Shown: positions 18,967 to 64,000 of the stretch, piece by piece | How the letters are laid out: the number at the start of each line of letters is the position of its first letter | How positions within the stretch are numbered: the stretch's first letter is position 1 | The notes under the pieces: generated by a model | The model's input: the letters and a program-made list of their open reading frames with translations, nothing else | Databases searched by the model: none | What the model was told of the DNA's origin: nothing | Made by a program: the position numbers and the translations under genes | Assembly: GCF_004135205.1 (NCBI RefSeq) | Contig: NZ_CP035490.1 | Location: 4,445,644-4,509,643 of the forward strand | Origin: Hahella sp. KA22 | Lineage (GTDB): Bacteria > Pseudomonadota > Gammaproteobacteria > Pseudomonadales > Oleiphilaceae | Reading direction: 5' to 3' | Length of the DNA: 64,000 nucleotides

Positions 18967-19050
18967 CGTGTCCGCGGCGCGCGAATGCACGCCGGGATAA
19001 TATGCGGTCAGAGTGAACGCGTCAGTTCGGAAAAACAGTCAGCGTCCGGC

Positions 19051-20299: not shown

Positions 20300-20516
20300 T
20301 TCCCTCAATGGGCTTCATGGTCGTGTTTTCCAATATTTTTTCACCCGGATGGCGTTAACGCGCCAAGCAATCACGCCGTCGTTACTGAAGAAATATTAGA
20401 AGGCTTTACCGGAAGTAGCCTGAAGTCGTCCCGTGGCGTTATGGCCGTGGGCCTCTATGCGGTAGAGAGGCGTGCGCTATGCGTCGGTTAAAAATAATAA
20501 ATTACGACATCGAATC
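20300..20516 (+). promoter_or_regulatory. Presumed leader region of the NRPS/PKS operon
   Basis: These are the only non-coding bases directly before the first megasynthase gene, so the cluster promoter is here or before the small membrane gene. I see no confident -35/-10 pair or operator. A GTG at 20472, preceded by AGAGAGG, could start the first megasynthase 15 codons earlier. Confidence 0.3.
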
Positions 20517-23500
20517 ATGGTTACAGATACTACTCGCCGCGTTACTGACGCCACTCGCCGTCCCTTTTTCGCCGACATCAGTCGCGCGTTACAGTCTCAT
20601 GCGATTACCCGGGGAGATGCTGACGCCTTCGTCTTCCTGACCGATGATCGCGACGCCCGTTTCCCGCTCACCTACGCTGAACTGGATCAACAGGCGCGTC
20701 GCGTAGCCGCCTTGGTGCGACGCCACGCCCAACCTGGAGAACGGGCGCTGCTGCTGTTTCACCCCGGACTGGAGTTTCTGGCCGCCTTCTTCGGCTGCAT
20801 GTATGCAGGCGTCACGGCGATCCCCATGCATCCGCCGAAAAAGAACCGCAGCGCAGAACGTCTCAACAGCATTCTCGACGACGCCGACGCCCGCGTTATC
20901 CTCGCCAATGACTCCGTCGTCGCCGCCATCGCGGATGCGGACGCCGGCGACAAACGTTTGCGGGAAGCGGTCTGGTTATCAGTGGACGCAAGTCTGTTAA
21001 GCCCGGCCGATACCGCAACAGACAACGGCGCTTACGACAGAGAGAGTAACAGCGAGCACAACAACAAGAGCAACAGAGAAAACAATACCGAGGGCAGCGA
21101 ACCCGCATCGCTGCACGCGGACGACCTGGCGTTTCTGCAATACACCTCCGGCTCCACCTCCGCCCCCAAAGGCGTCATGGTGAGCCATCGCAACCTGATT
21201 CTGAATCTGGACGAACTGCATCGCTGCTACGACCATGACGCCGACGCCATTGTGGTGAGCTGGCTGCCGCATTTTCATGATCTGGGGCTGATCTACGCCA
21301 TTCTGACGCCGTTGTACGCAGGCTCAATCTGCTACCTGATGGCGCCGGCGACCTTCATCCGCAACCCGGTGCGCTGGCTGCAGGCGATCTCCGACTTTCG
21401 CGCTACACACAGTGCGGCGCCTAATTTCGCGTACCAGCTCTGTATCGATAAAATCAGCGCCGAACAAATGCAGGACCTGGACTTATCCTGCTGGCGCGTC
21501 GCCTGCAACGCGGCGGAGCCCGTGCGCTATGAAACCCTGCGGGATTTCACCGCCGCCTTCAGCGATTGCGGCTTCGATTACGACGCATTGTCCCCCAGCT
21601 ACGGTCTGGCGGAAGCCACTGTCAAAGTATCCATCACTCCCATATCCGAGCCGCCCACTGTTCTGCATGTGGAACGGGAGGCCCTGTCCCAGGGTGAAGT
21701 GAAAATCGTCGCCGCCGGCGCGCCGGGCTCCACGCCATTAGTTGGCTCAGGGCGGGTCGACATGGACACCAAAAGCCTGATTGTCGATGCGGAAACGCGG
21801 ACTCCCTGTCTGCCGGACAGAATCGGCGAAATCTGGGTGCGCGGCCCTTCCGTGGCCAGCGGTTACTGGGCGCGCCCGGAAGCCACCTCAGATATCTTCG
21901 ACGCGCATCTCGCCGCCCCCCAGGGCAGATACTCCGGCCCCTACCTGCGCACCGGCGACCTGGGATTCATTCATGGCGCGCAGTTATTCATCACCGGCCG
22001 CCGCAAAGATCTGCTGATCATCGACGGCGTCAACTACTACCCACAGGACATCGAAAAAACCGTTTTCGCCAGCCATCCAGACCTGACCGCCGACAACGGC
22101 GCCGCGTTCTCCGTGGAGATCGACGGCGAGGAACGTCTGGTTATCGTGCAAGAGGTGAAACGCACCGCCGTACGTCAGTTGGACGGCGACGCCGTGGCTC
22201 GCGCCATTCGTCAGGCGGTTTTTCAGGAGCATGAGCTGCCGGTATACGCCATCGCCCTGTTGAAACCCTTGCAGGCTTACAAGACCACCAGCGGCAAGAT
22301 CCAGCGGCAGGCCAATCGCAAAGCCTGGCTGGATGGCTCGCTGCAACCGATCTACCAATGGCGCGCCAACACCCGGCAAGATATAACCGAGCATGCTGCG
22401 CCCCATGCGCAAGAACACGCAGCCTCCCAAGCCGCCGCGCCACCCATCGCGACGGAAAGCCTGGGCGCCAAAGACATCGCCGATTGGTTATCCCGGCAAT
22501 TGGCGGCGATCACCGCCCTGCCCGTCGCGGATATCGACCCTAACGCAGATTTCGCCAGCTTCGGGCTGGCCTCTCGCCATGTGGTCGCACTCAGCGGCGA
22601 GCTGGAACGCTATGTGGGCGTCGCCACCCCGCCCACCCTGTTTTATCAGCATCCCAATATCGCGCGGCTGGCGGCGTTTATCGCTACGCTGGCCAGCGGC
22701 GCGCCAGGCGTCAAACAGAACGGCGGCGCGGCCAAAGTGAAGCACAAAGCCGCGCGTCTGGTGGATGTGGAAGCCACGCCATTTGAAAGCAACGATCCCA
22801 TCGCCATTGTCGGTATGGGTTGCCGTTTCCCCGGCGCGGGCAATCCGCAAGCGTTGTGGCGTTTATTAAACGAGGGCGTGGACGCAATTCGCGAGACGCC
22901 GCCGGAGCGCTGGAGCAACAACGCCTATTATCATCAGGAAGCCGGCGTCGATGGACGCATGAACACCCGCTGGGGCGGTTTTCTGGACGACATCGACCAG
23001 TTCGACCCGCAATTCTTCGGCATCGCGCCGCGGGAAGCGGAAACCATGGACCCACAGCAACGTCTGCTGCTGGAAGTCTGCTGGGAGGCGTTGGAAGACG
23101 CGGGCATTGCGGTCAGCTCTCTGGCCGGCAGCGACGCCAGTGTCTTCATGGGGGTCTGCAATACCGAGTTTCAACGCATCAGCTACGCAGACCGCAACGC
23201 CATTCGCATGCACACCGGTACCGGCGCCGCCGCCAGCGTGGCGTCTGGGCGTATTTCCTATCTTTGGGACTTGCGCGGTCCCGCCATGACCATCGACACC
23301 GCCTGCTCGTCCTCCCTGGTGGCGGTGCATCAGGCCTGCGAATCCCTGCGCCGCAACGAATCCAGCCTGGCGCTGGCGGGAGGCGTCAACCTGATCCTGC
23401 TGCCCGGAGGCACTATTTCCCTGTCCCAGGGACGCATGATGTCGCCAAGCGGCCGCTGCAAAACTTTCGACGCCGAGGCGGACGGCTACGTGCGCGGCGA

Positions 23501-26500
23501 AGGCTGCGGAGTCGTCGTTTTGAAACGTCTGGCGGACGCGCGACGGGACGGCGATGAAATCTACGCGCTGATCCGCGGCTCCAGCGTGAACCAGGACGGC
23601 CACAGCAACGGCCTCACCGCGCCCAATGGACAGGCGCAGCAGGACGTCATCCGCTCCGCGCTGTTCAAAGCCGAAGTGCAGCCCTGCCGCATCCGCTATG
23701 TGGAAGCCCACGGCACCGGCACGGCCCTGGGCGATCCCATCGAGGTGAACAGCCTGCGGGACGTGCTGGAAGAAAACCGCGACGCGGACCACCCATGCAG
23801 CATCGGCTCCATCAAAACCAACATCGGTCACCTGGAAGCGGCGGCGGGCGTGGCCGGGCTGATCAAGACAGCCCTGGCGCTCAAACACCGGGTGATTCCC
23901 GGCAGCCTGCATCTGCGTCAACGCAATCCTCTGATCGATATCGACGAGCGCCTGTTCCGCTTGCCCCAGCGCAGTGAGCCCTGGGACGGCGAATTTCTGG
24001 CGGGGGTCAGCTCTTTTGGTTTCAGCGGCTCCAACGCCCACGTCGTGCTGCAAGGCATAGTAGAAGCGCCCACCGAAACCGCTTCCGATGTCGTCGCTGC
24101 AGCCACCGTGCCGCAAGGGGATGACGCGCCTTATCGCCTGTTGACGCTATCCGCCGCCGACGCTCAGGCGCTACAGGCGCTGGCGCGCCGTCATGGCGAA
24201 CATCTGACGACCTTGCACGCCAACGCCCAACTGGCTAACGGCGCTGGCTGGGCGGACTATTGCCATACTCTGAACAACGCCCGGGAGGCCTTGCCCTATC
24301 GTCTGGCTCTCAGCGCACAGAGCGCGCAGGACGCCGCCGGGACGCTCAAGACGTTTCAAGGACAGGAAGCGCCGAATCTGAGTCTCGGCGTGGCCCGACA
24401 CGCTCCGGTGATTGTGTTCCTGTTCTCCGGTCAGGGCGCCCAGTATCCCGGCATGATGCGGCGTCTGTATGAGACCGAGCCGGTGGTGCGTGACACCCTG
24501 GACCGTTGTGAAGCGGTGGCCGCGCCGTTGCTGGGGCAATCGCTGCTGACGCTGATGTTCAATCCCGACCCGGATTCCGGTATCCATCAAACCCGCTTTA
24601 CTCAGCCCGCCCTGTTCGCCTGTGAAGCGGCGCTGGCGCGGCTGTGGATGTCCTGGGGCGTGCAACCGCAATTGGCGTTGGGGCACAGCGTAGGCGAATA
24701 CGCCGCCGCCCACGCCGCCGGTCTGTTCAGCCTGGAACAGGGCATGAAACTGGTGTTGCGGCGCGGCGAACTGATGCAGTCTCTCCCCGCCGGGGAAATG
24801 CTCGCGGTGTTCGCGCCCCGGGATAAAGTGGCAGCGCTGCTACAGGACGCTGGCGTCGCTCTGGCCATAGCGGCGGACAATGGACCCGATCTCACCGTGA
24901 TCAGCGGTCGCGGCGAAGCCATGGCGCAGATCCGCCCTCTGTTGTCCCAGCAGGATATTCGCTTCCAGTCCGTGCAGGTTTCTCACGCTTTTCATTCGCC
25001 GATGATGGCGCCCATTCTGCCGGATCTGCGCAAGGTGACCGAATCCACGCCCCTGGGACAACTGCAATTTCCTCTGCTATCCAACGTCACCGGCGACTTC
25101 ATCGAGGTGGAGGATTACGAACACGATTACTGGTTGCGCCACACCATGAATCCGGTGGAATTCCGCAAGAGCATGCTCACCGCCGCGGATCGCCACGTGG
25201 ACCTGTTTGTGGAAATCGGCCCCGGCGCCAGTCTGTGCGGCATGGGCAAACGTTGCCTGCCGGACAGCAAAGCCGCCTGGATACATAGCATTCGCTATGG
25301 CGAAGACGAGCAGGCGTCGGTGCTCAATGCACTGGGTCGCGTGTATTGCCATGGCGGCGCGCCGGACTGGCGCACGCTGCCGGGACGACGCCGTTTGCGG
25401 GACGCCGCGCTGCCCAGCTATCCCTTTCAGCGTCATCGTTACTGGCCGCAAAACTACCAGGAATCTCCCGCAAACGGAGATCGGGCCGCCGATGGCCACC
25501 CGCTACTCGGGCGCGCCACCTCGCTGGCGGAACCGACAGGCGACCTGTACGACCAGCATCTCGACGCCAATGCGCACGCTTATCTGACGGGACACAAGGT
25601 CAGCGGCGCCGTCGTGTTCCCCGGCGCGGCCTATATCGACATGGCGTTGTCCGCCGCAGGACGACACTGGCCGGACGCCGGCGCGCTCTGCCGCAACATG
25701 CAATTCCACGCGCCGCTGGTCGTCGACGATCTCGACCACTGGCGGCTGCAGACTCAGTTTATTCAAGCAGGCGCTGACGCCGCGCAGATCAAGATCTTCG
25801 CCCGTCGTGACGGTCGTAAAAATCGTGACGGACGCGACGAGAGCGGAGCGCCCTGGCGACTGCACGCCAGTTGCGAAGTCAGCCGTCAGGACGCAGCAGC
25901 GAATCGGGAACCGCAACTCCCTCTCCCCACCGAAGCCGCTCTGGCGCACTTTGAAAACAGCCTGTCTGGAGAGCAGTTCTACGCACAATGGCGTCAACGG
26001 GGCAATGACTGGTCCGGCCAGTTCCAGGGCATTCAGCGCATCTGGTCTTCGCAACAGGAAGCCTGGGCGTTGATACAGGCGCCTGAAGAGACCGCCGCGC
26101 AGCTCGACGCCTACCGCACTCACCCTGGCGTGCTGGACGCCTGCGCGCAGACGCTGGCGGCATTGGGAGGCGATGAGAAAGGCGCATTTGTCGGACATTC
26201 CGTACAAAATCTGCGACTTTTGCGTAACTTCAGCAAATATAGCTACTGGGTGCGCGCCCGCCTGGCGCCGCAGAATACGTCGTCGGACCATCTGCTCAGC
26301 GGATCGCTGTCCATTTTCGACAATCACGGCGAGCTGCTCGCGGAGGTAGAAGGCTTACGCTTCAGCTTCCTCGATGCGGCGGTGGGACATAGCCCCGAGG
26401 CCGAACAGGGATTCGCCTTTGAACTGCGTTGGAATCAGACTGAGATCACGCCAGAAGCGCCCCTCACGGACAGTCATCAACAGGACTCAGAAACAGACGC

Positions 26501-29500
26501 AGTTTTATCAAATCAAACACCCCATTTGTCCCTACGTCGCTACGGCTCCGCACTGCTCTGCATCGCGCCAGAGATTCCAGAGGACTCCGCCGAACCGGAC
26601 GTGCTGCTGGACAATCTGGTGGAACAGCTGGAGGCCATCCTTGACGCTCTGGCCGCCGCACAGGAAGACGACGAGGACACGCCCCGGCTTTGGTTGCTCA
26701 CCCATCGCGCCTGCGCTGTAACCGAAACGGACGCCGCTGTCTGTCCCTACGCCGCCGCGCTGTGGGGCTTTGGACGCGCATTGGCGGTGGAGAAGGCCAA
26801 TTATTGGGGCGGCATGGTGGACCTGGACCCAGAAGCGTCCGCTCAAGACCCACATCTGCTGCTGGACGCCATACTGAGTCAGGCTGGCGGCGCAGACGCT
26901 CAATTCGCCATGCGTCAGGGCACCATTTATCGCGCGACATTAGATCGCACCACCCTCACCGCGCCTGTAAACCGGACTTTTTCCCTGCGCGCCGACGCCA
27001 GTTATCTCATCACCGGCGGTCTGGGAGATTTGGGGCTGCGCTGGGCGCGCTGGCTGGCTGAGCAAGGAGCCAGACGGCTGGTGCTGATGGGACGCAACGG
27101 CCTGCCGCCGCGCTCCGAGTGGACGCAACTGTCTCCAGACTCCCGCGACGGACGACGCGTCGCCGCGCTTCGGGAGATCGAAGCGCTGGGAGCGCAAATC
27201 ACCCTCGCTTCAATTGATCTCATTGATAACGCAGCCTGCGCCGCCTGGCTGCACCAGTATCAACAACAGCAACCCGCCATTCGCGGCGTGCTGCACGCCG
27301 CTGGCGTCGCTCACGCCATGGCCGTCGAGGCTCTGGATCGGGAGACGCTGCGCGGTGAAATCGCCGCCAAGGTCTGCGGCGGCGAAACATTGCATCGCTG
27401 CTTCCCCGTCGGTTCCCTGGACTTCCTGTTGCTGTTCTCCTCCACCTCCGCCGCGTTGCCGTCTCCCCGTCTGGCGGCCTACGCCGCAGCCAACGCCTGG
27501 CTGGATGGACTGGCCGCACGACGACGCGCGCTGGGAGAGCTGGCGGTGTCCGTGCAATGGGGCGCATTCCGCGAGATTGGTTTGATGGCGCGGGCGCAAA
27601 GGGATAACAACGCAACTAATGCAGGTCTGACGCCAGACGCCTGCGTGGCGCTGACGCCGGCGCTGCTGGCGGCGAACCAGGCCGTCATCGGCGTCACTCT
27701 GGAAGATCCTGGTTTGGCGGCTTACGCCGGAGACAGTTTGTACTTACAAGGACTCAAACCCGTACAGGTTGACGCACCCGCCAGTAGCACAGCGGAGGAA
27801 AGCTCAACGTCCCTGGACTGGCTCGATCAGCCCCACGAGCAACGCCAGGCGGCGCTGCTGCGCTGGTTAACCGCCCAGGCCGCCGCTGTATTGCGCCTGA
27901 ACCCGGACAATATCGACCCTGCCGCGCCTTTAACGCAATACGGGCTGGATTCGCTGATGGCGGTGGAGCTGCGCAATCGTATCGAGAAAAACCTGAGCGC
28001 CAACGTCAGCATCGTTGATATCCTGAAAAGCAATGGTCTGGACGATCTCTCACAAAGTGTCGCTAACAGGCTTACTGAGCGTGACGCGGACAACGGCGCT
28101 TCCACTGCGCCGGAAACTCTGCCCGCGCCTCTGGATTGCGGCGCGCCCTGGGAGCTTTCGTATAACCAGCAGGCGCAATGGTTCCTGCATCAACTGGACC
28201 CGACCAGCCCGGCCTATCATGTGTCCTTCGCTGCGCGCCTGCGCGACGGCTTTGCGGGAGAGCGGGATCACGCCTTCCTGCAGGCGGCTTTGAACCAGAT
28301 CGCCCGCCGTCATCCGGCGCTGCGCACGGCGATTCAGGTGGACAGCAAGCCACGCCAGCAGGCTCGGGACGATATCGCGATCCCTTTACAAGTCGTGAAC
28401 GCTCATGACCTTGACGCTTCCACTTTGTATCAGGAAGTGCGACGGGCCTATCAAACGCCGTTCGAACTGTCCCGCGCGCCTCTGCTGCGCGCCTGGGTGT
28501 TCGTCACCGCGCAGGACAGCGTGCTGCTTTTGACCGCCCATCACGCGGTCTGTGACGGCTGGTCGCTGTGGGTGATTCTGGATGAACTCAAGGCCCTGTA
28601 TGAGGCGCGCCGCGCAGGCGTCGCTCCGGAACAGGCCGCGCTGCCGGCGCTGACTTACTCCCAGGTGGATTTCGTGCGCTGGCAAAACGCCATGCTGGAG
28701 ACGGAGCGCGGCGAAGAACTCTGGCATTACTGGCGCGACGCCCTGGCGGACGCCGACTTCGAACTGAATCTGCCGGCTGACCTTCCCCGCCATGGAACAA
28801 TGCAAAAGGCGGTTGGCGAATCCATTCATTTTCAGCTCGCCCCGCAACTGGACACAGCGCTGCGCACCCTGGCGAAGCAGCGGGGAACCACGCTGTTCAG
28901 CCTGATGCTGGCGGCGTACCAGTTGCTGCTGCATCGCCTGTGCGGACAGCAGCGCGTTATCGTGGCCACGCCGGTGCACGGACGCAGTCGCCCGGAATTC
29001 CAGCCGCTGGTGGGAGACTTTGTGAATCTGGCGCCGGTAAGCAGCCGTTTTGATCCCGAGCAGACCCTGGACGCCTACCTGCGCAATCAGCAGAGCACCT
29101 TGCTCGACGCCCTCGCTCACGGCGACTATCCCCTGCCATTGCTGGTGGAGCGGCTTGGCCTGCAGCGTAACGGCAGGGGGCAGTCTCTGGTGAAGACCAC
29201 CTTCATCATGCAGAAGCCGCAAACCGACAACGCCACCCTGGATCTGTTCCTGGCCACCGACGATAACCTGCGGGTGAGCTGGGGCGATCTGCAACTGTCG
29301 CCCTATCCCATGCCGCAGCAGGAAGGCCAGTTTGAGCTGTCTCTGGAGATCGCCGACAGCGCCAATGGCCTGCAGGGTTTCCTGAAATACGACGCCAATC
29401 GCTGGAGCCGCGCCAGCGTCGAAAGACTGGTGCGACGCTATCGTCATGTTCTGTCCGCGCTCAGCGCCGGCGAACAGCTCGCCCGGCCATTGGTCGATCT

Positions 29501-36174: not shown

Positions 36175-36202
36175 AGACAACGACAGACAAAGGGAGTGTT
36201 GG

Positions 36203-39763: not shown

Positions 39764-39800
39764 ATGCTAGAACAATAAACGGAAAAAAAAGAATACAACC

Positions 39801-50656: not shown

Positions 50657-50772
50657 CCCGTTCCGCTCGTATGGGAAGACGTGCGGGAAAACGCCTTCAG
50701 CGGCTGCAAAGTCCGCGTCGCTGAAGGCGTCAGATCCAGAAGTCCCTGAACAACAAGAATCGGACAAGGACC

Positions 50773-53700: not shown

Positions 53701-55398
53701 GATCGCAAAGCGCTGGCGACGCTGCGGCAAAGCGAGCGCCTCGGCGTGACCACCGCCTTCACCGCGCCGCAAAGTCCCCTGGAAACGCTGCTGGCGCATC
53801 TGTGGAGCGAGATTCTGGGACGGGAGCAGGTTGGCGCCAACGACAACTATTTCGCCCTGGGGGGCGACTCCATCAAAGCCATCCAACTGGCGTCCCGGCT
53901 GCACCGGGAAGGCTGGAAAATGGCCATCAAAGACCTGTTCGCCAATCCGACTATCGCGGCGCTGGCGCCCTGGGTCACGCCGCTGGAGCAACGCCAGGAT
54001 CAGGACTGGGCGGCCCCGCAAGGGCCGGTTCCCCTCCCCCCGGCGCAGAGTCGCTTCTTCCGGGAGCATAGCGAGAATCCGCGCCGCTTCAATCACGCGC
54101 TCCTGCTGCGCAGCGAGCAACCTTTGTCCGCCTCGTCGCTTCAGGCGGCGCTGGACGGGGTATACGCCACCCATGAATCCCTGCGTCTGCGTTTTCTGCG
54201 GGATGACGACAACCGCTGGATGCAGGAGGCCATGGCCCTGGACGACGCGCCGGGAGTGCGGCTGCGGGAAATCGATTTAAAGGACAGCGAAGACCTTCCC
54301 TCTGCGCTGGTCCACCAGGGTGAGCAACTGCACGCCGCGATGGACCCGGAAAACGGACGCCTGTTCGCCGCCGCGCTGTTGCGCTGCCCGGACGGCGACC
54401 GACTGCTGCTGGCGGCCCACCATCTGGCGGTGGACGGGGTGTCCTGGCGTATTCTGCTGGATGATCTGCTGCAAGGGTACGCCCAGGCTTGCGACGGCCA
54501 GCCCGTGCACTTGCCGGAAGCGCCCGGATTTACGCACTGGGCGGCGCAACTGGCACGTTTCGGCGGCAGTCGCGAACTGCAGGCGGACATCCCTTACTGG
54601 GCGGCGCAGGAGGAAACCCATGATCTCGACGCCTCCGATAGCGAACCCTGCCGCTATGGCGACGCCCTGACTCTGACCCGGGAGCTGGACCCTGAGCTGA
54701 CCCAGGCGCTGCTGACCGCCGCCAATCAGGCTTACAACACCACGCCGGAAGACCTGCTGCTCACCGCCCTGGCCCGCGCCATGGCGCCTTCCGACAACAC
54801 GGCGGTCAACCTGTGCCTGTTGATGGAGAGCCACGGCCGCGACCTGCTGGAGACGGATCTGGACCTGTCCCGCTGCGCCGGCTGGTTCACCTGTCTGTGG
54901 CCGCTGTCCCTGACCTTGCCCGGCGACCGCGAACTGGCCTATCAGATCAAATCAGTGAAAGAGAGCCTGCGTCGCGTTCCCCGCAAAGGCGCGGGCTACT
55001 CGCTGTTGCAGGAATTCGGCGGCGACGCTGCTGCGGCGCTGCGCTTCAACCTGCGGCCGCAGATCAGCTTCAACTATCTGGGGCAGCTCGACGCGCCTCT
55101 CGCTGACGCCAGCCTGCGCTTCAGCGATGAACCCAGCGGCGATTGCGTGCGTCCCGAAGCGCCGCGTCCCTGCGCTCTGGAGATCAGCGCCATGGCCCTG
55201 GAAGGACGCCTGCGCCTGCAACTTTGCATCGACCGGGCGCGGCCCCTGCTGGACGCCGACGTCCTGCTGACCCGCTGGAGCGAACAACTAGCGCATTTGG
55301 CTGAGCACTGCCTGGGCTGCGCGGGAGCCACCGTCACGCCCTCGGATTTGACCTATTCTGATATCAGCCTGGATGAGCTGGAAGGAATCATTTCATGA
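50773..55398 (+). CDS. NRPS module: C(DCL)-A(Gln)-PCP-E
   Basis: This 1541-residue protein has a C domain (10-450) that begins IYPLTPVQEGMLFH and has SHHHILLDGWS. This is the type that accepts a D-configured donor, which fits the upstream E domain. The A domain (475-980) yields by-eye code DAQDLGVVDK, a third glutamine module. The PCP has LGGDSIKAIQ. The E domain (1087-1540) has HHLAVDGVSWR, ESHGRDLL, CAGWFTCLWP and FNYLGQLD, so D-Gln is expected. The gap of 116 nt before it is the longest in the operon. AAGGA lies only two bases before the ATG, so the start is set by homology rather than ribosome site. The stop overlaps the next start (ATGA). Confidence 0.93.
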   Translation: MTVTKKDIKNIYPLTPVQEGMLFHALLEPESSAYFQQTAWRLRGELNADAFEQAWRLLAQRHDLLRTLFSHQQSDQPLQIVLHQLPPHIERQDLRYIDSLRSDAYCRHFRDNERRQGFDLSQGPLWRISLLRLEDDLWEVVWSHHHILLDGWSYGLLLSELLATYRSLCEGEDAEAQLNLTPTPPFSRYARWLAAQDQAASAQYWRTYMDGFAEPTEPPFRKYRPDAQPESAELSFQLSRGQTERLQSLCAQHGITLNALLQATVATLLARCCDQEDVAFGTVVSGRPADLAGVENMVGPFINTVPCRIRVDPDYSLLQLAQTLQQRHLASAPHHYYPLAKIQAAAGFAGQDQGLFNLVMAVENYPVDAMVKRATEQTDLGFAVEDVFSFEKTHYDFDLQFMPGERLQGKLIYNRSRYEPAYVESIPLIFQTIIESFCSNIEVKVAAIPLLSEASLELLRDVCEGLSWRPDSDTLIDRFLRQAQASPQRIAVSDGDAQLSYDALREAANRLARRLAEQNVADDEPVGLCTGRSVNLAVGALGILSAGGAYLPLDIAQPEARLRQQIIDSGLRVMVADNATLAALRDIDAGAPVQILALPDAAQHLEAAPELELQRTLRPDQLAYVIYTSGSTGVPKGVAVEHRNVVNLNDALWDIAYRRYSRPVNVALLANAVFDASVQQLFPALLHGHRLLVVDQETRQDAARLTDLFIQQRITLSDCTPTLLALWLPELARRSDELALDTLLVGGEALPSALAQAVGEALPAVRLINVYGPTECCVDATAYVIDSKRLPPSPCVPIGQPLRNTRAWVLDRHGAPVPAGVPGEIALAGAGVSRGYLNRPELNGEKFVFLSSPCSASGAVRFYKTGDRGRWTLDGALEFLGRMDDQVKVRGHRIELGDVESHLRSHPDVEQAAALLVAPNPESESASAELLAYIVVKQEVGADTLRKYLQERLPEYMLPSGYVALDALPLNASGKLDRKALATLRQSERLGVTTAFTAPQSPLETLLAHLWSEILGREQVGANDNYFALGGDSIKAIQLASRLHREGWKMAIKDLFANPTIAALAPWVTPLEQRQDQDWAAPQGPVPLPPAQSRFFREHSENPRRFNHALLLRSEQPLSASSLQAALDGVYATHESLRLRFLRDDDNRWMQEAMALDDAPGVRLREIDLKDSEDLPSALVHQGEQLHAAMDPENGRLFAAALLRCPDGDRLLLAAHHLAVDGVSWRILLDDLLQGYAQACDGQPVHLPEAPGFTHWAAQLARFGGSRELQADIPYWAAQEETHDLDASDSEPCRYGDALTLTRELDPELTQALLTAANQAYNTTPEDLLLTALARAMAPSDNTAVNLCLLMESHGRDLLETDLDLSRCAGWFTCLWPLSLTLPGDRELAYQIKSVKESLRRVPRKGAGYSLLQEFGGDAAAALRFNLRPQISFNYLGQLDAPLADASLRFSDEPSGDCVRPEAPRPCALEISAMALEGRLRLQLCIDRARPLLDADVLLTRWSEQLAHLAEHCLGCAGATVTPSDLTYSDISLDELEGIIS

Positions 55399-58300
55399 TA
55401 AAAAAGGAAAACCTCAAGGACCTGTATCCCCTGTCCCCCATGCAGGAAGGCATGCTCTATCAAAGCCTGCTGCATCCCGACGCGCCGGTGTATCACGAGC
55501 AGGCGCTGTACCGGCTGCGCGGCGAGCTGCGGGTGGATCTGCTGGAGCAGGCCTGGGAGCGGTTATTCCAGCGTCACGATATCCTGCGCGTCCAGTTCAT
55601 CGCCGAGAAAGTGTCCCGACCTCTGCAAGCGGTGCTGCATCAACGGGTCGGCGAGTTTCATTACAACGACTTACGCAAGGCGTCGCCGGATTTTCAGGAG
55701 GAGCTGGTTCGTCAGGCCCAGGCGGAAGACCGTCAGCGCAGTTTCGATCTGCAACGGGAGCCGCTGATGCGCATGCGTCTGCTGCAACTGGCGGACGACC
55801 GCTTTGTGCTGCTGTGGAGCCTGCATCATATCCTCATGGACGGCTGGTGCCTGAGCCTGCTGTTGCGGGACTTCACACTGATCTATGACGCCCTGCGCGA
55901 AGCGCGCCCGCTGGATTTGCCAGCGCCGCCGCCTTACAGCCGTTATATTCAATGGCTGGAGCGTCAGGACGCAACCCAGGCCCGGAATTATTGGCGCGAA
56001 CAACTGGAGGACTACCATCAGGCCGCCCAGATACCACGGCAGCAGACCCTCGCCCCCGCCGGCGCCGGCAAACGCACCTTCACTCACGCGCTGCCCAGGC
56101 CCCTCAGTGAACGCGTGCGGCAGGCCGCGGCGGACTGGGGAATGACGCCCGGGGCCATCCTGCAAGCCGCCTGGGGCGCATTGCTGGCCCGCTACAACGA
56201 TTGTGACGACCTGGTGTTCGGAACCCTGGTGTCAGGGCGTCCGGCGGAACTTCCCGGGACTATGGAAATGGTGGGGGTCTTCATCAACACCCTGCCGCTG
56301 CGTTTGCGCATCAGTCCCGACGCCACCTTGCGCGAACTGGCTCAGGCCACGCAATTGCGTTTGCTGGAGGCGGAGTCGCGCCAGTACCTGCCGTTAAGCG
56401 AGGTGCAACAGCTCAGTCCTCTCGGCAAAGATCTGCTCACCCATCTGTTCGCCTTCGAGAACTATCCCGCACCGGCGCAACCAGACGGGGCTTTCCGCGA
56501 CGCCATTCAGGTGGAAAGCATCAGCAAGCACGAAGACATTCCCTACGATTTCGGCGTCACCGCCACACCGGAACATAGCCCGCAGGGGACGACGCTGGTG
56601 ATGCGCTACCTGTACAACCCGGCGCAGTTCGAAGGCGCCTTCGTCGAGCGCCTGAGCGGACACTATGAGCGCCTGTTGCGCCAGGGACTGGGCGCGAGCG
56701 GGGATGTGGCCTCCACACCGCTGCAGCAGATAGACCTGCTGGGCGCCGCTGAGTACGACCGCCTGCGCGCCTTTCATGGCGAGACGCATCCGTTGCCCTC
56801 CTGCGACAGCTATCTGGATCTGTTCGAGCAGGCCGTCGCCGCTGCGCCGGACAGCATTGCGGTGGAAGACGGCGAGCGTCGCATCAGCTATCGCGAGCTG
56901 GATGAACGCGCCAACGCTCTGGCTGCGTTGCTGCAAGAGCGCTATGACGTGGGAGTGGAAGACCGCATCGGCGTCGCTCTGCCTCGCAGCGCCGCCCTGC
57001 TGATCGCCGAACTGGCGGCGGGCAAAGCCGGCGCGGCCTTTGTTCCGGTAGACCCGGACTACCCGCCGGAGCGCCGCCTGCGCACGTTCCAGCAGGCGCA
57101 ATGCAAACTGGTGATCGGCGACGCCGAGGAAGCCGCATTGTGGGGCGAATACAAGCTGTGGCGCGAGCACAGCCAGATTCCCTTCATCCCCCTGGACGCC
57201 CTCGACCCCAACAGCCGTCGCCCCCAGGCGCCGGCTCGCGCCTGTGGGCTGCGTAGTCTGGCCTATGTGATATTCACCTCCGGCTCCACGGGAGAGCCCA
57301 AAGGCGTCATGCTGGAGCATCTGGGCCTGATCAACCTGATCCAGTGGAGCCGCCGTCAATTCGGCATTCTCGCGGGCAAGCGCACCACCCTGCTGGCGTC
57401 GCCGGCGTTCGACGCTTCCGTATGGGAGTCGCTGCCGTCGCTGTGCGCAGGGGCGACCATTGTCATCACGCCGGACGCAATACGACGGGATGTAGGTCCT
57501 CTGTGTCAATTTCTGCATGACCGGCTCATTGATATCTCCTTTCTGCCGCCGGCCTTGTGTGAGGAAGCCTGCGTCAACTATCCGCACCTGTTGCAGAACA
57601 TCGTGCTGCAATCCGGCGGCGACACCTTGAAAGGCATTCGCAACGGCGGCGCCAGCGACCGTATCAAGGTCTCAAACAACTACGGGCCGTCCGAGTTCAG
57701 CGTGTGCGCCACCTCCTGCTACCTGGCGCCTCAGGAGCCCAGCCCTTACCCCATCGGCAAGCCCATCGCCAACGCCGAGGCGTTGATTCTGGATCGCCAG
57801 CAACGTCTGGCTCCCCTGGGCGCAGCCGGAGAAATCGCGCTGGCCGGGCCTTCTCTGGCGCGAGGCTACTGGGGGCGCGCCGACCTTACCGCCGCACGTT
57901 TCGTGGCGCACCCCTGCAAGCCCGGCGAACGGGTGTACCTGACCGGAGACAAGGGACGCTGGCGCGAAGACGGCAATCTGGATTTCCTCGGACGCATCGA
58001 CGACCAGTTATCTGTGCGCGGACATCGCGTGGAGCCGGCGGAGATCGAACACTTGCTGTCCCGCCACGAACGGGTGCGCGCCGCGGCGGTGGCGGCGACA
58101 CGGGGCGCGGACGGACACACGCTGCTGGCGGCCTTTGTGACGCCACGCAGCGCGGATGACTCGCCACTGGACCTGGACGACATCCGCCAATGGCTGACGC
58201 GGCGCGCCCCGTCCTACATGACTCCCGCCATTCTGCGGGAGCGGGACCGCCTGCCGTTGAACGCCAACGGCAAACTGGATCGCAAGGCGCTTGAGCGCGA

Positions 58301-58691
58301 AGCGGAGCAACTGCGCGCAGAAACGCCTTACGAAGCCCCGCAGACGGCAACGGAGAAGCAGGTGGCGGAGATCTGGAGTCAGGTGCTGGATCGGCGCCCC
58401 ATTGGCCGCAGTGATCATTTTCTGGAGCTGGGCGGGCACTCCCTGAGCGCCACCCGCGTCCTGTCGCAGCTACGCGGACGACTGCAGCGGGATCTGCCGC
58501 TGGCGCTGCTGTTCGACAAGCCTGTGCTCAAGGACCTGGCCGCCGCCATGGATGCGCTGGCGACCGCCGCAGCGCCGGCGTCCGAGAGCGGCATTCGTCG
58601 CGTCGACCGTTCACGCTACGCCGTCAGCGCGCCAAAACCGGAAAACCAGACCCCGGAGACGCAGGACCCCGCCGCTGCGGAGTCGTCCTGA
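55395..58691 (+). CDS. NRPS module: C(DCL)-A(Leu-like)-PCP
   Basis: This 1098-residue protein has a C domain (9-452) of the D-donor type (LYPLSPMQEGMLY, LHHILMDGW), matching the E domain upstream. The A domain (474-968; FTSGSTGEPKG, YGPSEFSVC, NANGKLDRK) reads by eye as DAWFQGNVCK. This differs at two positions from a published leucine code (DAWFLGNVVK), so a leucine or similar aliphatic residue is likely. The PCP has LGGHSLSA. A roughly 45-residue tail follows, with RRVDRSRYAV and a Pro/Glu-rich end, probably a docking linker. There is no E domain, so an L-residue is passed on. GGAAGGA lies eight bases before the ATG. Confidence 0.92.
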   Translation: MIKKENLKDLYPLSPMQEGMLYQSLLHPDAPVYHEQALYRLRGELRVDLLEQAWERLFQRHDILRVQFIAEKVSRPLQAVLHQRVGEFHYNDLRKASPDFQEELVRQAQAEDRQRSFDLQREPLMRMRLLQLADDRFVLLWSLHHILMDGWCLSLLLRDFTLIYDALREARPLDLPAPPPYSRYIQWLERQDATQARNYWREQLEDYHQAAQIPRQQTLAPAGAGKRTFTHALPRPLSERVRQAAADWGMTPGAILQAAWGALLARYNDCDDLVFGTLVSGRPAELPGTMEMVGVFINTLPLRLRISPDATLRELAQATQLRLLEAESRQYLPLSEVQQLSPLGKDLLTHLFAFENYPAPAQPDGAFRDAIQVESISKHEDIPYDFGVTATPEHSPQGTTLVMRYLYNPAQFEGAFVERLSGHYERLLRQGLGASGDVASTPLQQIDLLGAAEYDRLRAFHGETHPLPSCDSYLDLFEQAVAAAPDSIAVEDGERRISYRELDERANALAALLQERYDVGVEDRIGVALPRSAALLIAELAAGKAGAAFVPVDPDYPPERRLRTFQQAQCKLVIGDAEEAALWGEYKLWREHSQIPFIPLDALDPNSRRPQAPARACGLRSLAYVIFTSGSTGEPKGVMLEHLGLINLIQWSRRQFGILAGKRTTLLASPAFDASVWESLPSLCAGATIVITPDAIRRDVGPLCQFLHDRLIDISFLPPALCEEACVNYPHLLQNIVLQSGGDTLKGIRNGGASDRIKVSNNYGPSEFSVCATSCYLAPQEPSPYPIGKPIANAEALILDRQQRLAPLGAAGEIALAGPSLARGYWGRADLTAARFVAHPCKPGERVYLTGDKGRWREDGNLDFLGRIDDQLSVRGHRVEPAEIEHLLSRHERVRAAAVAATRGADGHTLLAAFVTPRSADDSPLDLDDIRQWLTRRAPSYMTPAILRERDRLPLNANGKLDRKALEREAEQLRAETPYEAPQTATEKQVAEIWSQVLDRRPIGRSDHFLELGGHSLSATRVLSQLRGRLQRDLPLALLFDKPVLKDLAAAMDALATAAAPASESGIRRVDRSRYAVSAPKPENQTPETQDPAAAESS

Positions 58692-58760
58692 CAACAGGAT
58701 TAAACAGACAACAACCATAACGACAACCCAAAGAACATAATAACGAGCAAGTACGCCGCT

Positions 58761-61700
58761 ATGACCGAAGCTTCCACCGCCGTACAGATTTATCAATTCC
58801 CCCTGTCCTTCGCCCAGGAGCGCCTGTGGTTCCTGCACGAGTTCGAGGGGGACAACGTCGCCTACAACATCAGCGCCGCGCTGCAACTGGAGGGCCCTCT
58901 GGACCCCGCCGCGCTGCAGCGGGCGCTGGATACGCTGATCGCCCGCCACGAGATTATGCGCACCCTGTTCGTCAGCGACGGCGGCCTGCCGACCCAGCGG
59001 GTGCTGCCGTCCCTGCACATCGCCATCGAGCGCGTGTGGTTCGCCGACAGCGACCTGGAAGCCCGCAAAGCCCGCGCGCAGGCGTATTTCGTGGAGAAGA
59101 ATCGCCGCCCCTTCGATCTCACTCAGGGGCCGCTGCTGCGGGCCACCCTGGTGGAGTTGGACAGCAGCCGTTCTCACAGTCTGAGCTGGCTGAATCTGTG
59201 CATTCATCACATCATCGCCGACGCCTGGTCCGTGGGCGTGATCGTGCGGGAGCTGGCGGCCCTGTACCGCGCCGCCCTGCGCCATCGCCCCTGCGAACTG
59301 CCGCCGCCGGCGCTGCAGTATGCGGATTTCGCCGTATGGCAGCGGGAGCGCCTGCAGGGCGATCTGTTGCAGCAGGAACTGGACTTCTGGCGTCAACAGT
59401 TGCAAGGCGCTCCCGCGCTGGTGAATCTGCCTCTGGACTATCCTCGCACCCAGCAGCCGTCGCCGGATGCGGACTACGTGCGCATCGATCTGCCCGCGCG
59501 TCTGGCGCATCAGGCCCGACATTTCGCCGGCGCGTCCGGCGCCAGCCTGTATATGGTGCTGCTGGCGGCCTTCAATGTGCTGATCGGCCGTCTCAGCGGC
59601 CAGCAGGATGTGGTGGTGGGCAGTCTGATCGCCAATCGCAATCAGGCGGATGTGGAAGCCCTGGTGGGCTTCTTCGTCAACACCCTGCCCCTGCGTTGCG
59701 ATCTGTCCGACGATCCCAACTTCCGCGATCTGGTGCGCCGGGTCAAACATACCGCCCTCAGCGCGTACAATCACCAGGACCTGCCCTTTGAGCGCATGGT
59801 GGAGGCGCTGCAGCCTGAGCGGGATCTCAGCTTCCCGCCGTTGATCCAGTTGTTGTTCGTGCTGCAGAACGCGCCCATGGACGCATTCGAACTGGAAGGC
59901 GTGCAGGTGACGCCGCTGCGCCTGCCGCAGCCCGGCCAGATCCGCTTTGACCTGGAGGTGTACGGCGAAGAGGACGCCAACGGCTTCCATCTGGACTTCT
60001 GGTTCCGCTCGCAGCTGCTGCACAAGGACTCCGTAGAGCGTATGGCGCGCCAGTATCTGACGCTGCTGGAGGCGGCGCTGAACCAGCCGCAGCGCCCCGT
60101 GATGGGGCTACCCATGCTGGATCGCGACCAGTATGGCGAACTCAGCCGCGGCTTGTTTCTGGAGGCGCAGCCTTACCCCGATACCCTGTGCATTCATCAT
60201 TTGTTCGAGCGCCACGCCGAACTGCATCCCGAGCTGACGGCGGTCATGCGGGACGGTCGGTCTCTCAGCTATGGCGAGCTGAACCGTCGCGCCAACCGCC
60301 TTGCCCATCTGCTGATCGCGCGCGGGATCAAGCTGGAGGACCGCATCGGCGTCTGCCTGGACCGCTCTCTGGACATGACGGTCGCCCTGCTCGCCGTCTT
60401 CAAAGCCGGCGCCGGGTATGCGCCGCTTGACCCGGCTTACCCCACTGAACGCATCGCCTACATGCTGGAGGACAGCGGCGCGCGACTGACCCTGACTCAG
60501 CAGGCCGCCAGCGCCCGGCTGCCAGCGGGCGTCGCCACGCTGATGCTGGACGACCTGGAAACCCTGACCGCGGACTGTGAAGACAGCAACCCTCAGCGTC
60601 CTGTGGCCGCGGACAATCTGGCCTATGTGATCTACACCTCCGGCTCCACCGGCCTGCCCAAAGGCGTGGCGATTGAGCATCGCTCCGTCGGCGCGCTGAT
60701 TCACTGGGCGCAGACCCAATACCATCTGGAAGAGTTGGAAGAGGTGCTGGCCACCACGTCCATTTGCTTCGACCTCTCGGTATTTGAGATTTTCGTTACC
60801 CTGTGCAGCGGCGGCCGCGTCCATCTGGCGGACAACATGACCGCGCTGGCGGAGCGCGCCGGCGATCTGGACGCCTATTCCAAAGTCAGTCTGATCAATA
60901 CCGTGCCCTCCGCCATTCAGGCGCTGTTGCGGGCCAACGCCGTGCCGCCGCAGGTGCGCACGGTGAATCTGGCGGGCGAGCCCTTAAAGCAGGAACTGGT
61001 GGAGCAGCTCTACGCCTTGCCCCACATTCGCCACGTCTATGATCTCTACGGGCCGTCCGAGGATACCACCTACTCCACCTGCGCCCTGCGACGCCCCGGC
61101 GGCAAAGCCAACATTGGACGCCCCATCAGCAATACCCTGATTCATATCATCGACGAGAACCTGCAACTGGTTCCCCGCGGCGTGGCGGGCGAATTATTGA
61201 TCGGCGGCCGCGGTCTGGCCCGGGGCTACCTGGGCAAGCCGGAGCTGACCGCCCAGCGCTTCATCGCCAACCCGTTTTCCGGCGATCTCAGCGAGCGTCT
61301 GTACCGCACCGGAGATCTGGTGCGGGTGAACAGCGACGATCAACTGGAGTATCTGGGGCGTATCGACCAGCAGGTGAAAGTGCGGGGCTTTCGCATAGAG
61401 CTGGGCGAAATTGAATCATGTATCAACAGCTTACGAGACAATGATAAGAAACTGGTTAAAGACTGCGTGGTGTCCGTGATCAAATACGACAGCCTGGGTC
61501 CCTACCTGGCCGCCTATGTCGTGAGGGCGCCCGGACGCAGCATCGATGCGGATGACCTGAAACGACGGCTGGCGCGTCGCCTGCCTGGCTATATGGTTCC
61601 TGAGGCGATCATTACACTGGACGCCATCCCCTTGACCGCCAACGGCAAGACCGACCGCAAGGCGCTGCCGATTCCCCAGCGCAGCGCCCGTGAAACCGAG

Positions 61701-64000
61701 TACGTGGCGCCCGGTAACGGATTTGAGCAGGCGGTGGCCGACGTATGGGCGGAAGTGCTGCAACAGGAGGTTATCGGCGTACGCGATAATTTCTTTCAAC
61801 TGGGCGGCCACTCGCTACTGGCGACCCAGATTATCGCCCGCCTCAACCAGCGCTTCGGCGCCGGTCTGACCGTGCGCAATCTGTTCGAGTGTCCCCATGT
61901 GGCGGAACTCGCCGCCCTGGTGCGCGAACGCAGCGTCGCCGCCATGGAGACCCCTGCGGAAAAAGCCATCCGTCGCGCGCCCAGCGGCGGCGCCCGCCGC
62001 GCTTCCCTGGCGCCGGCGCAGATGCGTCTGTGGTTCCTCAGCAAGATCGACGGCGGCAGCAGCGCCTACAATCTGCACATGACCGTGCGCATTAATGGCG
62101 AACTGCATGCGGATCGTTTGCAGGAGGCGTTCGCCTGCGCCTCCGCGCGCCATAAGATTCTGCGCACCACCTTCCATGAAGACGAGGCTCTGGGGGCGGA
62201 TGGCGCGCCCTATCAACGCATTCACCCGGAGCTGTCCTGTGAATTTCTCCAGGTCAGCGTGGAGTCCCATCCAACGGATCGACGGGAAGCGGAGGCGGAA
62301 CGGCTGGCCGTGGAAGCGGCGCAGACGCCCTTCGACCTGAGTCGCGGCCCCTTGGTGCGGGTGCTGCTGGTGCGGCTGGCGCCGCGTCGCCATGTCATGT
62401 TGCTGGCGATGCATCACATCATCTCCGACGGCTGGTCCATTGGCGTTCTGTTTAACGAAGTGAAGGCGTTCTATCAGGCCATCAACCCGGAAACCTTCGC
62501 CCTGGACGCCGCGGCGACGCTCAGTCTGCCGCCCCTGTCCTTGCAATACGCCGACTACGCCGCCGAGCAGATTTTGCGTCTGGAGCGGCCGGAGGCGCAG
62601 CGGCAACTGGAATACTGGCGCACGCAACTGGCGGACGCGCCGCCCCTGCTGGAATTGCCTCATGACCGTCCGCGCCCGGCGCAGGCGGATTTCGCCGGCG
62701 ACACCTTGCCCTTTCATATCGACAGCGGCCTCACTGCGGCGTTGCGCCGCTTCGCCGACGCCGCCGGCGCCAGCCTGTTCATGGTGAGCTGCGCCGCCTT
62801 CGCGGCCCTGATGAAGGTGTACAGCCGCCAGCGCGACATCGTCATCGGCGCGCCGGTGGCGAACCGCACCCGGCCCGAGCTGGAGCCGCTGATCGGCTTC
62901 TTCGTGAACACTCTGGCGCTACGCATTCGCAGCAAGGAAAACTTTACTTTCAATGAGTTATTGAAGGAAGTTAAAACCGTTTCTCTTGACGCTTATGAGC
63001 ATCAGGACCCGCCTTTCAACAAAGTGGTGGAGTCGCTGGAGCTGGACCGCGCCCTCAATCACAACCCGTTGTTCCAGGTGATGTTCGTGTTGCAGAACGC
63101 GCCCACGGTGACGCGGGAAACGCCGGAACTGGAAATCACCCCGTTCCCGATTCGCCAGCAGCGCGCCGCCTTCGACCTGCTGTTCTCCCTGACCGAGTCC
63201 CAGGGACGGATGCACGGCGAGGCGGTCTACAATCGCACCCTGTTCGACCGCGCCAGCATCGAGCGCATGCTGGAGGTGTATCTGGGCCTGCTGGAGCTAT
63301 GCGTCAACCGCCCGGATGAACCGGTGTTAAGCCTGCCTCTTGCGGCCCCGGCGGAAATTCCCGCCCAGCCGGCCCAGGGGGCGACGCCTCTGCCCGCCCT
63401 GATTCAGGATCAATGCGAGCGCACTCCGGACCTGGAAGCCCTGAGCTGGAGTCCCCAGGCCGGCGCGCTGACGGAATGGTCCCGGCTCAACTCCCATGTC
63501 AGCTACGGAGAGTTCGCCCGTCTCGCCAATCAGGCGGCGGACTGGCTGCGGGAACAAGGCGTGACGGGCGGCGATGTGATCGCGCTCTGGCTGCCCCGCA
63601 GTCCCGAGCTGTTCGTGCTCAAATATGCGGCGCTGAAAATGGGCGTCGCTTACACGCCCATCGATCCCGAGTTTCCTCTGCCCCGGGTGCGGCAAATGCT
63701 GGACAGCGCCGCTCCGCGTCTGCTGGTGACAGTGAACGCGCAGCATGGTTGCGAGGACGCGCCCTGCGCCATCGCGCCGCTGCCGCAACTGTGGACGCAA
63801 CTGTCCCGTCGCCGCGCGGAACCGCCGCCGCTGCCGGACCCGGACTGCATCGCCTACATTCTGTACACCTCCGGCAGCACCGGCGTGCCTAAAGGGGTCG
63901 CCATGCCCCAGCGCGCACTGAGCAATCTGGTGGTCTGGCATCGTCAACATCCCCGTTTGAGCGCTCCCGCGCGCACGTTGCAGTTCGCCGCCGTTGGCTT
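58761..64000 (+). CDS. NRPS, partial: C-A(Ala/Gly)-PCP-C-A..., cut by the window edge
   Basis: The open frame of at least 1746 codons starts at the ATG at 58761 and runs off the right edge without a stop. C1 (10-450) is of LCL type (PLSFAQERLWFLHEFEG), as expected after a module without E. Its active motif is HHIIADAWS, with Ala where Gly is usual. A1 (480-970) reads DLFNNALTYK by eye, a code published for alanine and sometimes glycine. The PCP (984-1055) has LGGHSLLA. C2 (1082-1523) has HHIISDGWS and is also LCL. A2 begins near 1544 and reaches YTSGSTGVPKG before the sequence ends, so its specificity residues are missing. The upstream gap is 69 nt and the ribosome site is weak. Further modules and a release domain must lie to the right. 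Confidence 0.92.
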   Translation, partial: MTEASTAVQIYQFPLSFAQERLWFLHEFEGDNVAYNISAALQLEGPLDPAALQRALDTLIARHEIMRTLFVSDGGLPTQRVLPSLHIAIERVWFADSDLEARKARAQAYFVEKNRRPFDLTQGPLLRATLVELDSSRSHSLSWLNLCIHHIIADAWSVGVIVRELAALYRAALRHRPCELPPPALQYADFAVWQRERLQGDLLQQELDFWRQQLQGAPALVNLPLDYPRTQQPSPDADYVRIDLPARLAHQARHFAGASGASLYMVLLAAFNVLIGRLSGQQDVVVGSLIANRNQADVEALVGFFVNTLPLRCDLSDDPNFRDLVRRVKHTALSAYNHQDLPFERMVEALQPERDLSFPPLIQLLFVLQNAPMDAFELEGVQVTPLRLPQPGQIRFDLEVYGEEDANGFHLDFWFRSQLLHKDSVERMARQYLTLLEAALNQPQRPVMGLPMLDRDQYGELSRGLFLEAQPYPDTLCIHHLFERHAELHPELTAVMRDGRSLSYGELNRRANRLAHLLIARGIKLEDRIGVCLDRSLDMTVALLAVFKAGAGYAPLDPAYPTERIAYMLEDSGARLTLTQQAASARLPAGVATLMLDDLETLTADCEDSNPQRPVAADNLAYVIYTSGSTGLPKGVAIEHRSVGALIHWAQTQYHLEELEEVLATTSICFDLSVFEIFVTLCSGGRVHLADNMTALAERAGDLDAYSKVSLINTVPSAIQALLRANAVPPQVRTVNLAGEPLKQELVEQLYALPHIRHVYDLYGPSEDTTYSTCALRRPGGKANIGRPISNTLIHIIDENLQLVPRGVAGELLIGGRGLARGYLGKPELTAQRFIANPFSGDLSERLYRTGDLVRVNSDDQLEYLGRIDQQVKVRGFRIELGEIESCINSLRDNDKKLVKDCVVSVIKYDSLGPYLAAYVVRAPGRSIDADDLKRRLARRLPGYMVPEAIITLDAIPLTANGKTDRKALPIPQRSARETEYVAPGNGFEQAVADVWAEVLQQEVIGVRDNFFQLGGHSLLATQIIARLNQRFGAGLTVRNLFECPHVAELAALVRERSVAAMETPAEKAIRRAPSGGARRASLAPAQMRLWFLSKIDGGSSAYNLHMTVRINGELHADRLQEAFACASARHKILRTTFHEDEALGADGAPYQRIHPELSCEFLQVSVESHPTDRREAEAERLAVEAAQTPFDLSRGPLVRVLLVRLAPRRHVMLLAMHHIISDGWSIGVLFNEVKAFYQAINPETFALDAAATLSLPPLSLQYADYAAEQILRLERPEAQRQLEYWRTQLADAPPLLELPHDRPRPAQADFAGDTLPFHIDSGLTAALRRFADAAGASLFMVSCAAFAALMKVYSRQRDIVIGAPVANRTRPELEPLIGFFVNTLALRIRSKENFTFNELLKEVKTVSLDAYEHQDPPFNKVVESLELDRALNHNPLFQVMFVLQNAPTVTRETPELEITPFPIRQQRAAFDLLFSLTESQGRMHGEAVYNRTLFDRASIERMLEVYLGLLELCVNRPDEPVLSLPLAAPAEIPAQPAQGATPLPALIQDQCERTPDLEALSWSPQAGALTEWSRLNSHVSYGEFARLANQAADWLREQGVTGGDVIALWLPRSPELFVLKYAALKMGVAYTPIDPEFPLPRVRQMLDSAAPRLLVTVNAQHGCEDAPCAIAPLPQLWTQLSRRRAEPPPLPDPDCIAYILYTSGSTGVPKGVAMPQRALSNLVVWHRQHPRLSAPARTLQFAAVG

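Follow-up and report, generated by a model that had tools for sequence, protein, structure and literature searches.

A hybrid NRPS-PKS assembly line lies on the forward strand of the Hahella sp. KA22 genome. Its domain order is real and intact, and longer than the stretch of DNA analysed here (hereafter the window: 64,000 nucleotides, bases 4445644-4509643 of the 6.96 Mb single-contig genome). Very probably, this orphan, collinear Hahella line produces a lipopeptide whose synthesis is started by FAAL, in the residue order given below. The predicted lipopeptide would contain two adjacent gamma-amino-beta-hydroxy acids, and the line is conserved across two genera. The product class is already known; the points of interest are a ketoreductase (KR) split by a methyltransferase (MT) and an enzyme of the PhpK family.

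Extent and Genomic Context of the Assembly Line

The line spans positions 20472-72896 and overshoots the window end by 8.9 kb (Table 1). Genes past 64000 are given in the extended window numbering, from the next 34 kb of the contig; L006 refers to that locus' own numbering. The first half of the line reads FAAL-ACP / KS-AT-DH-KR / Gln / KS-AT-KR / X (Thr-like) / KS-AT-KR with C-methyltransferase, and the second half D-Gln / D-Gln / Leu / Ala / Pro / (radical-SAM gene) / Tyr-TE / (TauD). An earlier note had the line begin at 20517, which does lie inside gene A but is an internal ATG, the open reading frame starting at a GTG at 20472. The same note let the line end at 64000, where it does not stop: beyond this point come a Pro module, the radical-SAM gene of the PhpK family, a protein made of half a C domain, a Tyr module and the TE, and lastly TauD.

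Table 1. Genes and domains of the Hahella assembly line (window numbering, extended past 64000; residues in parentheses after A domains are predictions).
Feature	Position	Strand	Length (aa)	Description	Basis
Gene A	20472..31439	+	3655	FAAL-ACP-KS-AT-DH-KR-ACP-C-A1(Gln)-PCP	Pfam, motifs, code DAQDLGVVDK
FAAL of gene A	about 20598-22352	+			Pfam
Gene B	31426..36174	+	1582	KS-AT(presumed malonyl type, HAFH)-KR-carrier	Pfam, motifs
Gene C	36203..39763	+	1186	TubC_N docking-C-A2(DFWNCGFVWK, Thr-like)-PCP	Pfam, code
Gene D	39801..45698	+	1965	KS-AT(presumed malonyl type, GAFH)-KR split by C-methyltransferase-carrier	Pfam, HMM layout
Gene D KR, first part	43368..43493	+		KR model positions 2-43	HMM, alignment
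C-methyltransferase insertion in gene D KR	43500..44744	+	about 415		
Gene D KR, second part	44745..45179	+		KR model positions 59-205, with catalytic K, S, Y, N	
Gene E	45695..50656	+	1653	TubC_N docking-C-A3(Gln)-PCP-E	Pfam, code, EGHGR and HHxxxD motifs
Gene F	50773..55398	+	1541	C(D-acceptor clade)-A4(Gln)-PCP-E	Pfam, code, C-domain tree
Gene G	55395..58691	+	1098	C(D-acceptor clade)-A5(Leu)-PCP	Pfam, code, tree
Gene H	58761-66635 (in-window part 58761..64000)	+	2624	C-A6(Ala)-PCP-C-A7(Pro)-PCP-C; C-terminal tail EEFDF	
Gene I, radical-SAM (PhpK-family)	66738-68465 (L006 8382-10109)	+			TIGR04479 score
Gene J	68536-71982 (L006 10180-13626)	+		half C-A8(Tyr)-PCP-TE	Pfam, code, motifs
Gene K, TauD	71979-72896 (L006 13623-14540)	+			Pfam

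The cluster has a G+C content of 63.5%, against 51.5% in the upstream flank (window 11000-20000) and 53.5% downstream. In G015, a relative from another genus, the corresponding values are 48.6% for the cluster and about 45% around it. No Rfam element reached its gathering score within the 64-kb window, and promoter and terminator scans stayed near the shuffled background; in L006:8200-15100, 12 terminator-like sites were counted for 6.4 in shuffled sequences (sd 2.9). Among four upstream ORFs searched against Pfam, three gave matches (a PAS/GAF/GGDEF protein, at window 13436-15460, a periplasmic binding protein and a DUF481 protein) and one gave none. Six downstream ORFs had no Pfam match.

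The line recurs whole in three of six congeners (G001, G002 and G005), and four of seven genomes of the genus, that of the host included, have a gene C of 95-100% identity. G015 has 10 of 11 genes, all except TauD, in the same order at 37-69% identity (about 40% overall), and the A-domain codes of the two lines differ by at most two positions in eight of eight cases. Because both gene order and codes are kept in another genus, the line is more than a chance arrangement. No near-DNA match to gene C was found in plasmids.

Domains and Catalytic Motifs

The domains named in the earlier note, collinear on the forward strand, were borne out by Pfam and motif scans. Gene A starts with an AMP-binding and a DIP2-like domain and carriers, as is characteristic of FAAL-ACP loading. 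NRPS and PKS modules follow and a TE comes last, so that the whole has the layout of a FAAL-initiated hybrid NRPS-PKS. Reading frames are intact along the whole line. The KS Cys/His/His, the AT GHSxG with HAFH or GAFH, the KR Lys/Ser/Tyr/Asn and the TE Ser are all present, as are the catalytic motifs of the C and E domains. AT domains with GHSxG and [HG]AFH occur in genes A, B and D; we take HAFH and GAFH to denote the malonyl type. Carrier serines were pattern-matched, and read by eye for the first two ACPs of gene A and the PCP of gene J. The DH domain of gene A has its HxxxGxxxxP motif, and no ER family appears among the Pfam matches of this gene, so that a 2-enoyl chain is expected from the first extension. 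These observations agree with the earlier proposal of a FAAL-loaded chain carrying one dehydrated C2 unit.

Gene E holds five 24-base tandem repeats at window 46010-46130 (residues about 106-146, DASYDIP units), immediately following the first C-domain motif. The length of its product varies among Hahella carriers (1653, 1637, 1630 and 1632 aa).

Specificity of the Adenylation Domains

Specificity codes were read after alignment of all A domains with GrsA PheA, whose letters were identical to those of 1amu. A1, A3 and A4 share the Gln-type code DAQDLGVVDK. As this code has been reported for Glu and for Gln (PMC12283262), by itself it would also allow Glu. Its presence in A1 names the first statine-type unit, left without a name in the earlier note, as Gln-derived. 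The code of A2 is DFWNCGFVWK (DYWNCGFVWK in G015); it agrees at seven of ten positions with DFWNIGMVHK, a Thr code, and at no more than five with any of six other codes compared. The predicted A2 residue is small and polar; Thr, the likeliest candidate, is a low-confidence guess. A5 (DAWFQGNVCK) lies two positions off the Leu code, and its G015 counterpart is exactly DAWFLGNVVK, which is given as one of the most common codes for Leu/Ile/Val domains (PMC12283262). A6, A7 and A8 have the codes DLFNNALTYK, DVQFVAHVVK and DASTVAAVCK. We take these three to specify Ala, Pro and Tyr, respectively, an assignment helped by the reported frequency of Val236 and Gln239 in Pro domains (PMC12283262) and by the control described below. 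An earlier reading of Ala/Gly as the last residue thus keeps its Ala and loses its position, Pro and Tyr modules coming after it. Literature searches on some of the codes gave no match.

As a control of the method, codes were read from a region of Tistrella plasmid pTM3, where seven A domains were recovered and the pattern missed others that were expected; a didemnin line should hold more than seven. The codes obtained were DAWQFGLIDK (twice), DVQFAAQVVK (twice), DAFFLGITFK, DAWFLGNVVK and DASTLAAVCK. The region is taken here to be the didemnin cluster, on which assumption the codes fit the didemnin order Gln, Gln, Pro, Ile, Leu, Pro, Tyr. Its Leu, Pro and Tyr codes are close to those of the Hahella line.

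Ketide-Extended Units and Stereochemistry

Motifs are intact in both pairs of amino acid and reducing PKS modules. The prediction of a pair of gamma-amino-beta-hydroxy units that lie side by side, with alpha-C-methylation of the second, is therefore a good one. The earlier note had proposed two such units, the second methylated, on the grounds of two amino acid modules each followed by a single reducing PKS module; Pfam, codes and motifs agree on this. The predicted side chains, Gln-type and then small and polar, are unlike that of statine.

Modules E and F terminate in E domains (EGHGR in E, ESHGRD in F). In a tree of 20 C domains from the host line and that of G015, the C domains of F and G form a separate clade (support 0.999), and positional counterparts of the two lines are sisters in nine of ten pairs, the second C of H being the exception. 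The E domains together with the D-acceptor-like clade of F and G make D-Gln-D-Gln after the ketide units well supported. The sequence D-Gln, D-Gln, then a Leu-like residue had been read earlier and stands, given the codes, Pfam and the tree.

A Methyltransferase Inside the Ketoreductase of Gene D

A KR model built from three sequences (A and B of the host and A of G015) matches gene D in two pieces, with the MT between them. When gene D is aligned with the KRs of A and B, the MT stands out as a clean insert, and the KR is split alike in gene D of all five clusters. The closest solved relative of the MT is that of CurJ (5thy, E 4.1e-45), followed by those of the citrinin PKS (9.1e-31) and DisA (1.7e-30), and the AprA methyltransferase was also found. 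The CurJ, citrinin PKS and DisA enzymes are presumably C-methyltransferases. The His and Glu pair that C-MTs are expected to carry is present (in VHAT and LLES). Since the MT is closest to the CurJ C-MT, alpha-C-methylation is to be expected.

The position of the domain was compared with that in 13 MT modules, from 12 plasmid loci (of 38 records with a match) and one locus of the host genome. None of the 13 has its MT within a KR: four have the MT and then a whole KR, five the KR and then the MT (including L055, in which the second KR part alone was matched) and four no KR close to the MT. Moreover, none of the 38 plasmid records, Tistrella included, covers 80% of the KR-MT region. Among 398 genomes of the phylum, matches at E <=1e-40 occur in the host genome alone, at two places; at most three candidates were scored per other genome listed in this search, so that some may have been missed. 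Narrow literature searches for a KR-embedded MT returned no match. Structure prediction of the split KR from three sequences of the window gave a mean pLDDT of 47.1, with parts of the KR halves at about 65-88. It would seem that the gene D KR can accommodate, within its fold, a methyltransferase of about 415 residues.

Two other loci were encountered in these searches. A second PKS methyltransferase of the host (G000:C1:4097941-4098834, L044) is 35% identical and has its KR before the MT. In L045 (Sandaracinus plasmid pSa001), a C-MT-like domain belongs to a protein that bears the annotation alpha/beta fold hydrolase and adjoins an NRPS gene and a tryptophan 7-halogenase.

The PhpK-Family Radical-SAM Enzyme

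Protein P0009, encoded by gene I, belongs to the PhpK family of radical SAM P-methyltransferases (TIGR04479), against which it scores 772.4 bits for a cut-off of 600; the proteins of Hahella sp. HN01 and G015 (771.7 and 715 bits) are likewise above it. In 398 genomes of the phylum, five match P0009 at E <=1e-60, that of the host being the only one above the cut-off, with the others at 232-328 bits. A search of 97 genomes for relatives gave some radical-SAM match in 82, with identities of 71% or more only in G000 (the host), G001, G002, G005 and G015, the next best being 25%. A contig search with very specific patterns returned only Hahella sp. HN01, where NZ_JAHMIN010000025.1 holds a 99% identical copy, and a planctomycete stretch of 29% identity. 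Twenty-eight plasmid records match P0009, none above 60% identity or 80% coverage. Between Hahella and G015, the gene is the most conserved of the line (69%, vs 37-49% for the synthetases).

The PEP mutase of phosphinate pathways was sought in the same carriers. None of the five has a protein over the TIGR02320 cut-off of 319.55, each having one match at 126-128 bits. EDK...NS is the motif of PEP mutase; the two PEP_mutase-superfamily matches of the host have K[KR]CGH and lack EDK...NS. The carriers thus offer no PEP mutase above cut-off for a P-methylation pathway initiated by this enzyme. This lowers the claim of P-methylation and leaves the family placement unaffected; together with the missing EDK...NS motif, it leads us to read P0009 as a probable carbon methyltransferase. 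The substrate of PhpK, demethylphosphinothricin, is a phosphorus analogue of Glu and resembles Gln, so that Gln would be the favoured target.

The last 56 residues of P0009 extend beyond the family match and have ESFAF at their end. This resembles the tail of protein H, EEFDF or EEFNF, and the two tails are kept in all five clusters. From the composition of these proteins, any one C-terminus would show E.F.F by chance with a probability of about 6e-5, a figure to be taken as a lead only because the likeness was sought after the tails had been seen. It can tentatively be imagined, though as a whole this is rather doubtful, that the PhpK-family enzyme was recruited as a peptide-carbon methyltransferase, probably acting on one of the three Gln, and that it may reach the line by its ESFAF tail, perhaps at the half C domain of gene J. 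X domains recruit tailoring enzymes, and such recruitment would perhaps be analogous.

Gene J opens with the second half of a C domain only (L006:10180-10977); this half is conserved, gene J of G015 starts in the same manner, and H already ends in a complete C. TauD is present in four Hahella carriers and has no match in G015, G003, G004 and G006. Its absence from G015 implies that the core product should not need it.

Proposed Pathway

From these data, the following pathway can be proposed. FAAL would load a fatty acid, from which the single KS-AT-DH-KR module would produce a 2-enoyl chain. Module 1 would add Gln, and KS-AT-KR would extend and reduce it into a 4-amino-3-hydroxy acid. After addition of the small polar residue, most likely Thr, by module 2, the second KS-AT, with KR and C-methyltransferase, would give a 4-amino-3-hydroxy-2-methyl acid. 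D-Gln, D-Gln, Leu, Ala, Pro and Tyr would then be incorporated, and release by the TE would yield either an acid or a lactone. Most likely, a carbon of the peptide is methylated by the B12/radical-SAM enzyme of the PhpK family, Gln being the favoured acceptor, and in Hahella the TauD oxygenase probably adds a hydroxyl group. With Thr as the A2 residue, the residues from Gln-C2 to Tyr would add up to about 1031.53 Da, to be increased by the 2-enoyl chain and water (no water for a lactone), by 14.016 for each radical-SAM methyl and by 15.995 for TauD.

Some points count against this scheme. NRPS-PKS lines can stutter. The half C of gene J stands beside the full terminal C of H, and simple collinearity needs no such half. 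A2 fully matches none of the codes compared, the code of A1, A3 and A4 would also allow Glu, A5 is not an exact Leu code, and TauD is absent from G015. It should also be noted that the name of family TIGR04479 states P-methyltransferase, against C-methylation by P0009.

Alternative Readings and Comparison With Known Systems

A study of Hahella from 2022 describes 17 NRPS/PKS hybrid clusters in six groups from five genomes (PMC9030710). In the parts of that source at hand, prodiginines and chejuenolides are the only products identified and, for strain NBU794, four of 17 clusters are more than 50% similar to MIBiG entries, the rest being below 20% (PMC9030710). The present line may be among these clusters. 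Among the matches listed for Hahella lipopeptides and NRPS, no title or abstract ties a product to it, and the portions seen of PMC9963991 and PMC12858407 hold nothing on this cluster. Such a lack of a linked product would suit a decayed or unused cluster. Decay of this kind is extremely improbable, since the frames and the catalytic motifs sought are intact and another genus, at about 40% identity, has retained the same order.

The earlier note had likened the paired units to pepstatin. Statine is Leu-derived, the gamma-amino-beta-hydroxy unit is the pharmacophore, and pepstatin's two statines are placed apart. Two such units are predicted here as well, and an inhibitor of aspartic proteases could be imagined. 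However, the codes point to Gln and a Thr-like residue instead of Leu, and side chains of this kind, unlike that of statine, make the comparison weak; moreover, the units are adjacent, a D-Gln pair follows and the line has a FAAL start. Among the matches listed, literature on statine shows no link to Hahella. A pepstatin-like product is thus very unlikely, and the analogy was rejected on the A codes. Didemnin comes closer in outline. It has two adjacent ketide-extended residues, the second methylated, in the order Ist-Hip-Leu-Pro-Tyr, and both lines are lipopeptide NRPS-PKS hybrids with Gln modules and with Leu, Pro and Tyr codes, close in sequence, ahead of the TE. If the Hahella line belonged to this family, its product would be a depsipeptide acting on eukaryotic cells. 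Reviews on didemnin name two Gln, Ist and Hip, describe a line without AT domains and propose that it stutters. At the C-terminus, didemnin has Leu-Pro-Tyr-TE, and the Hahella codes give Leu-Ala-Pro-Tyr-TE. In contrast to the didemnin line, the Hahella PKS modules carry their own AT, no Thr or MeLeu module stands ahead of the first ketide unit, and the D-Gln pair comes after the ketide units and not at the start. The residues in both ketide units differ, and no KR was found beside the MT of the didemnin locus (L054). Given also that the Tistrella record does not reach the 80% coverage considered above, membership in the didemnin family is very unlikely, and it was discarded on the AT domains and residue order.

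Two rival readings concern the tailoring chemistry. Dolastatin 10 carries a 3-methoxy unit, and the unusual position of the MT inside the KR could be taken as a sign that it methylates oxygen to give such a unit. This is unlikely: the best solved relatives are PKS methyltransferases, presumably C-MTs, which disfavour O-methylation, and the His and Glu expected in C-MTs are in place. With respect to the bleomycin BlmVIII-type module, in which an amino acid and KS-AT-MT-KR-ACP give a 4-amino-3-hydroxy-2-methyl acid, gene D is predicted to make the same type of unit, but the MT of the former precedes the KR and that of Hahella splits it. Similarly, the MT is related to the CurJ-type C-MT and differs in being embedded in the catalytic KR subdomain in five of five clusters. 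As for P0009, the scores of the three carriers scanned would fit a true P-methyltransferase and a product with a methylphosphinate. This is highly improbable and disfavoured by the lack of a PEP mutase above cut-off in all five carriers; the superfamily matches of the host have K[KR]CGH and not EDK...NS, the A codes except A2 read as ordinary amino acids, and P0009 has its 56 residues beyond the family match. The reading as a carbon methyltransferase is therefore kept.

Literature on PhpK in connection with nonribosomal synthesis came down to a single paper, according to which PhpK mediates P-methylation (PMC7277169). Like the PhpK/BcpD enzymes of TIGR04479, P0009 is above the curated cut-off, as are its counterparts in HN01 and G015. 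Unlike in the PhpK/BcpD setting, the PEP mutase of the carriers is below cut-off, the P0009 gene lies between NRPS genes, and the protein is extended at its C-terminus by a segment whose tail resembles that of H, the NRPS protein before it. A PhpK-family enzyme in genomes with sub-cut-off PEP mutase thus offers a testable case for carbon methylation by this family.
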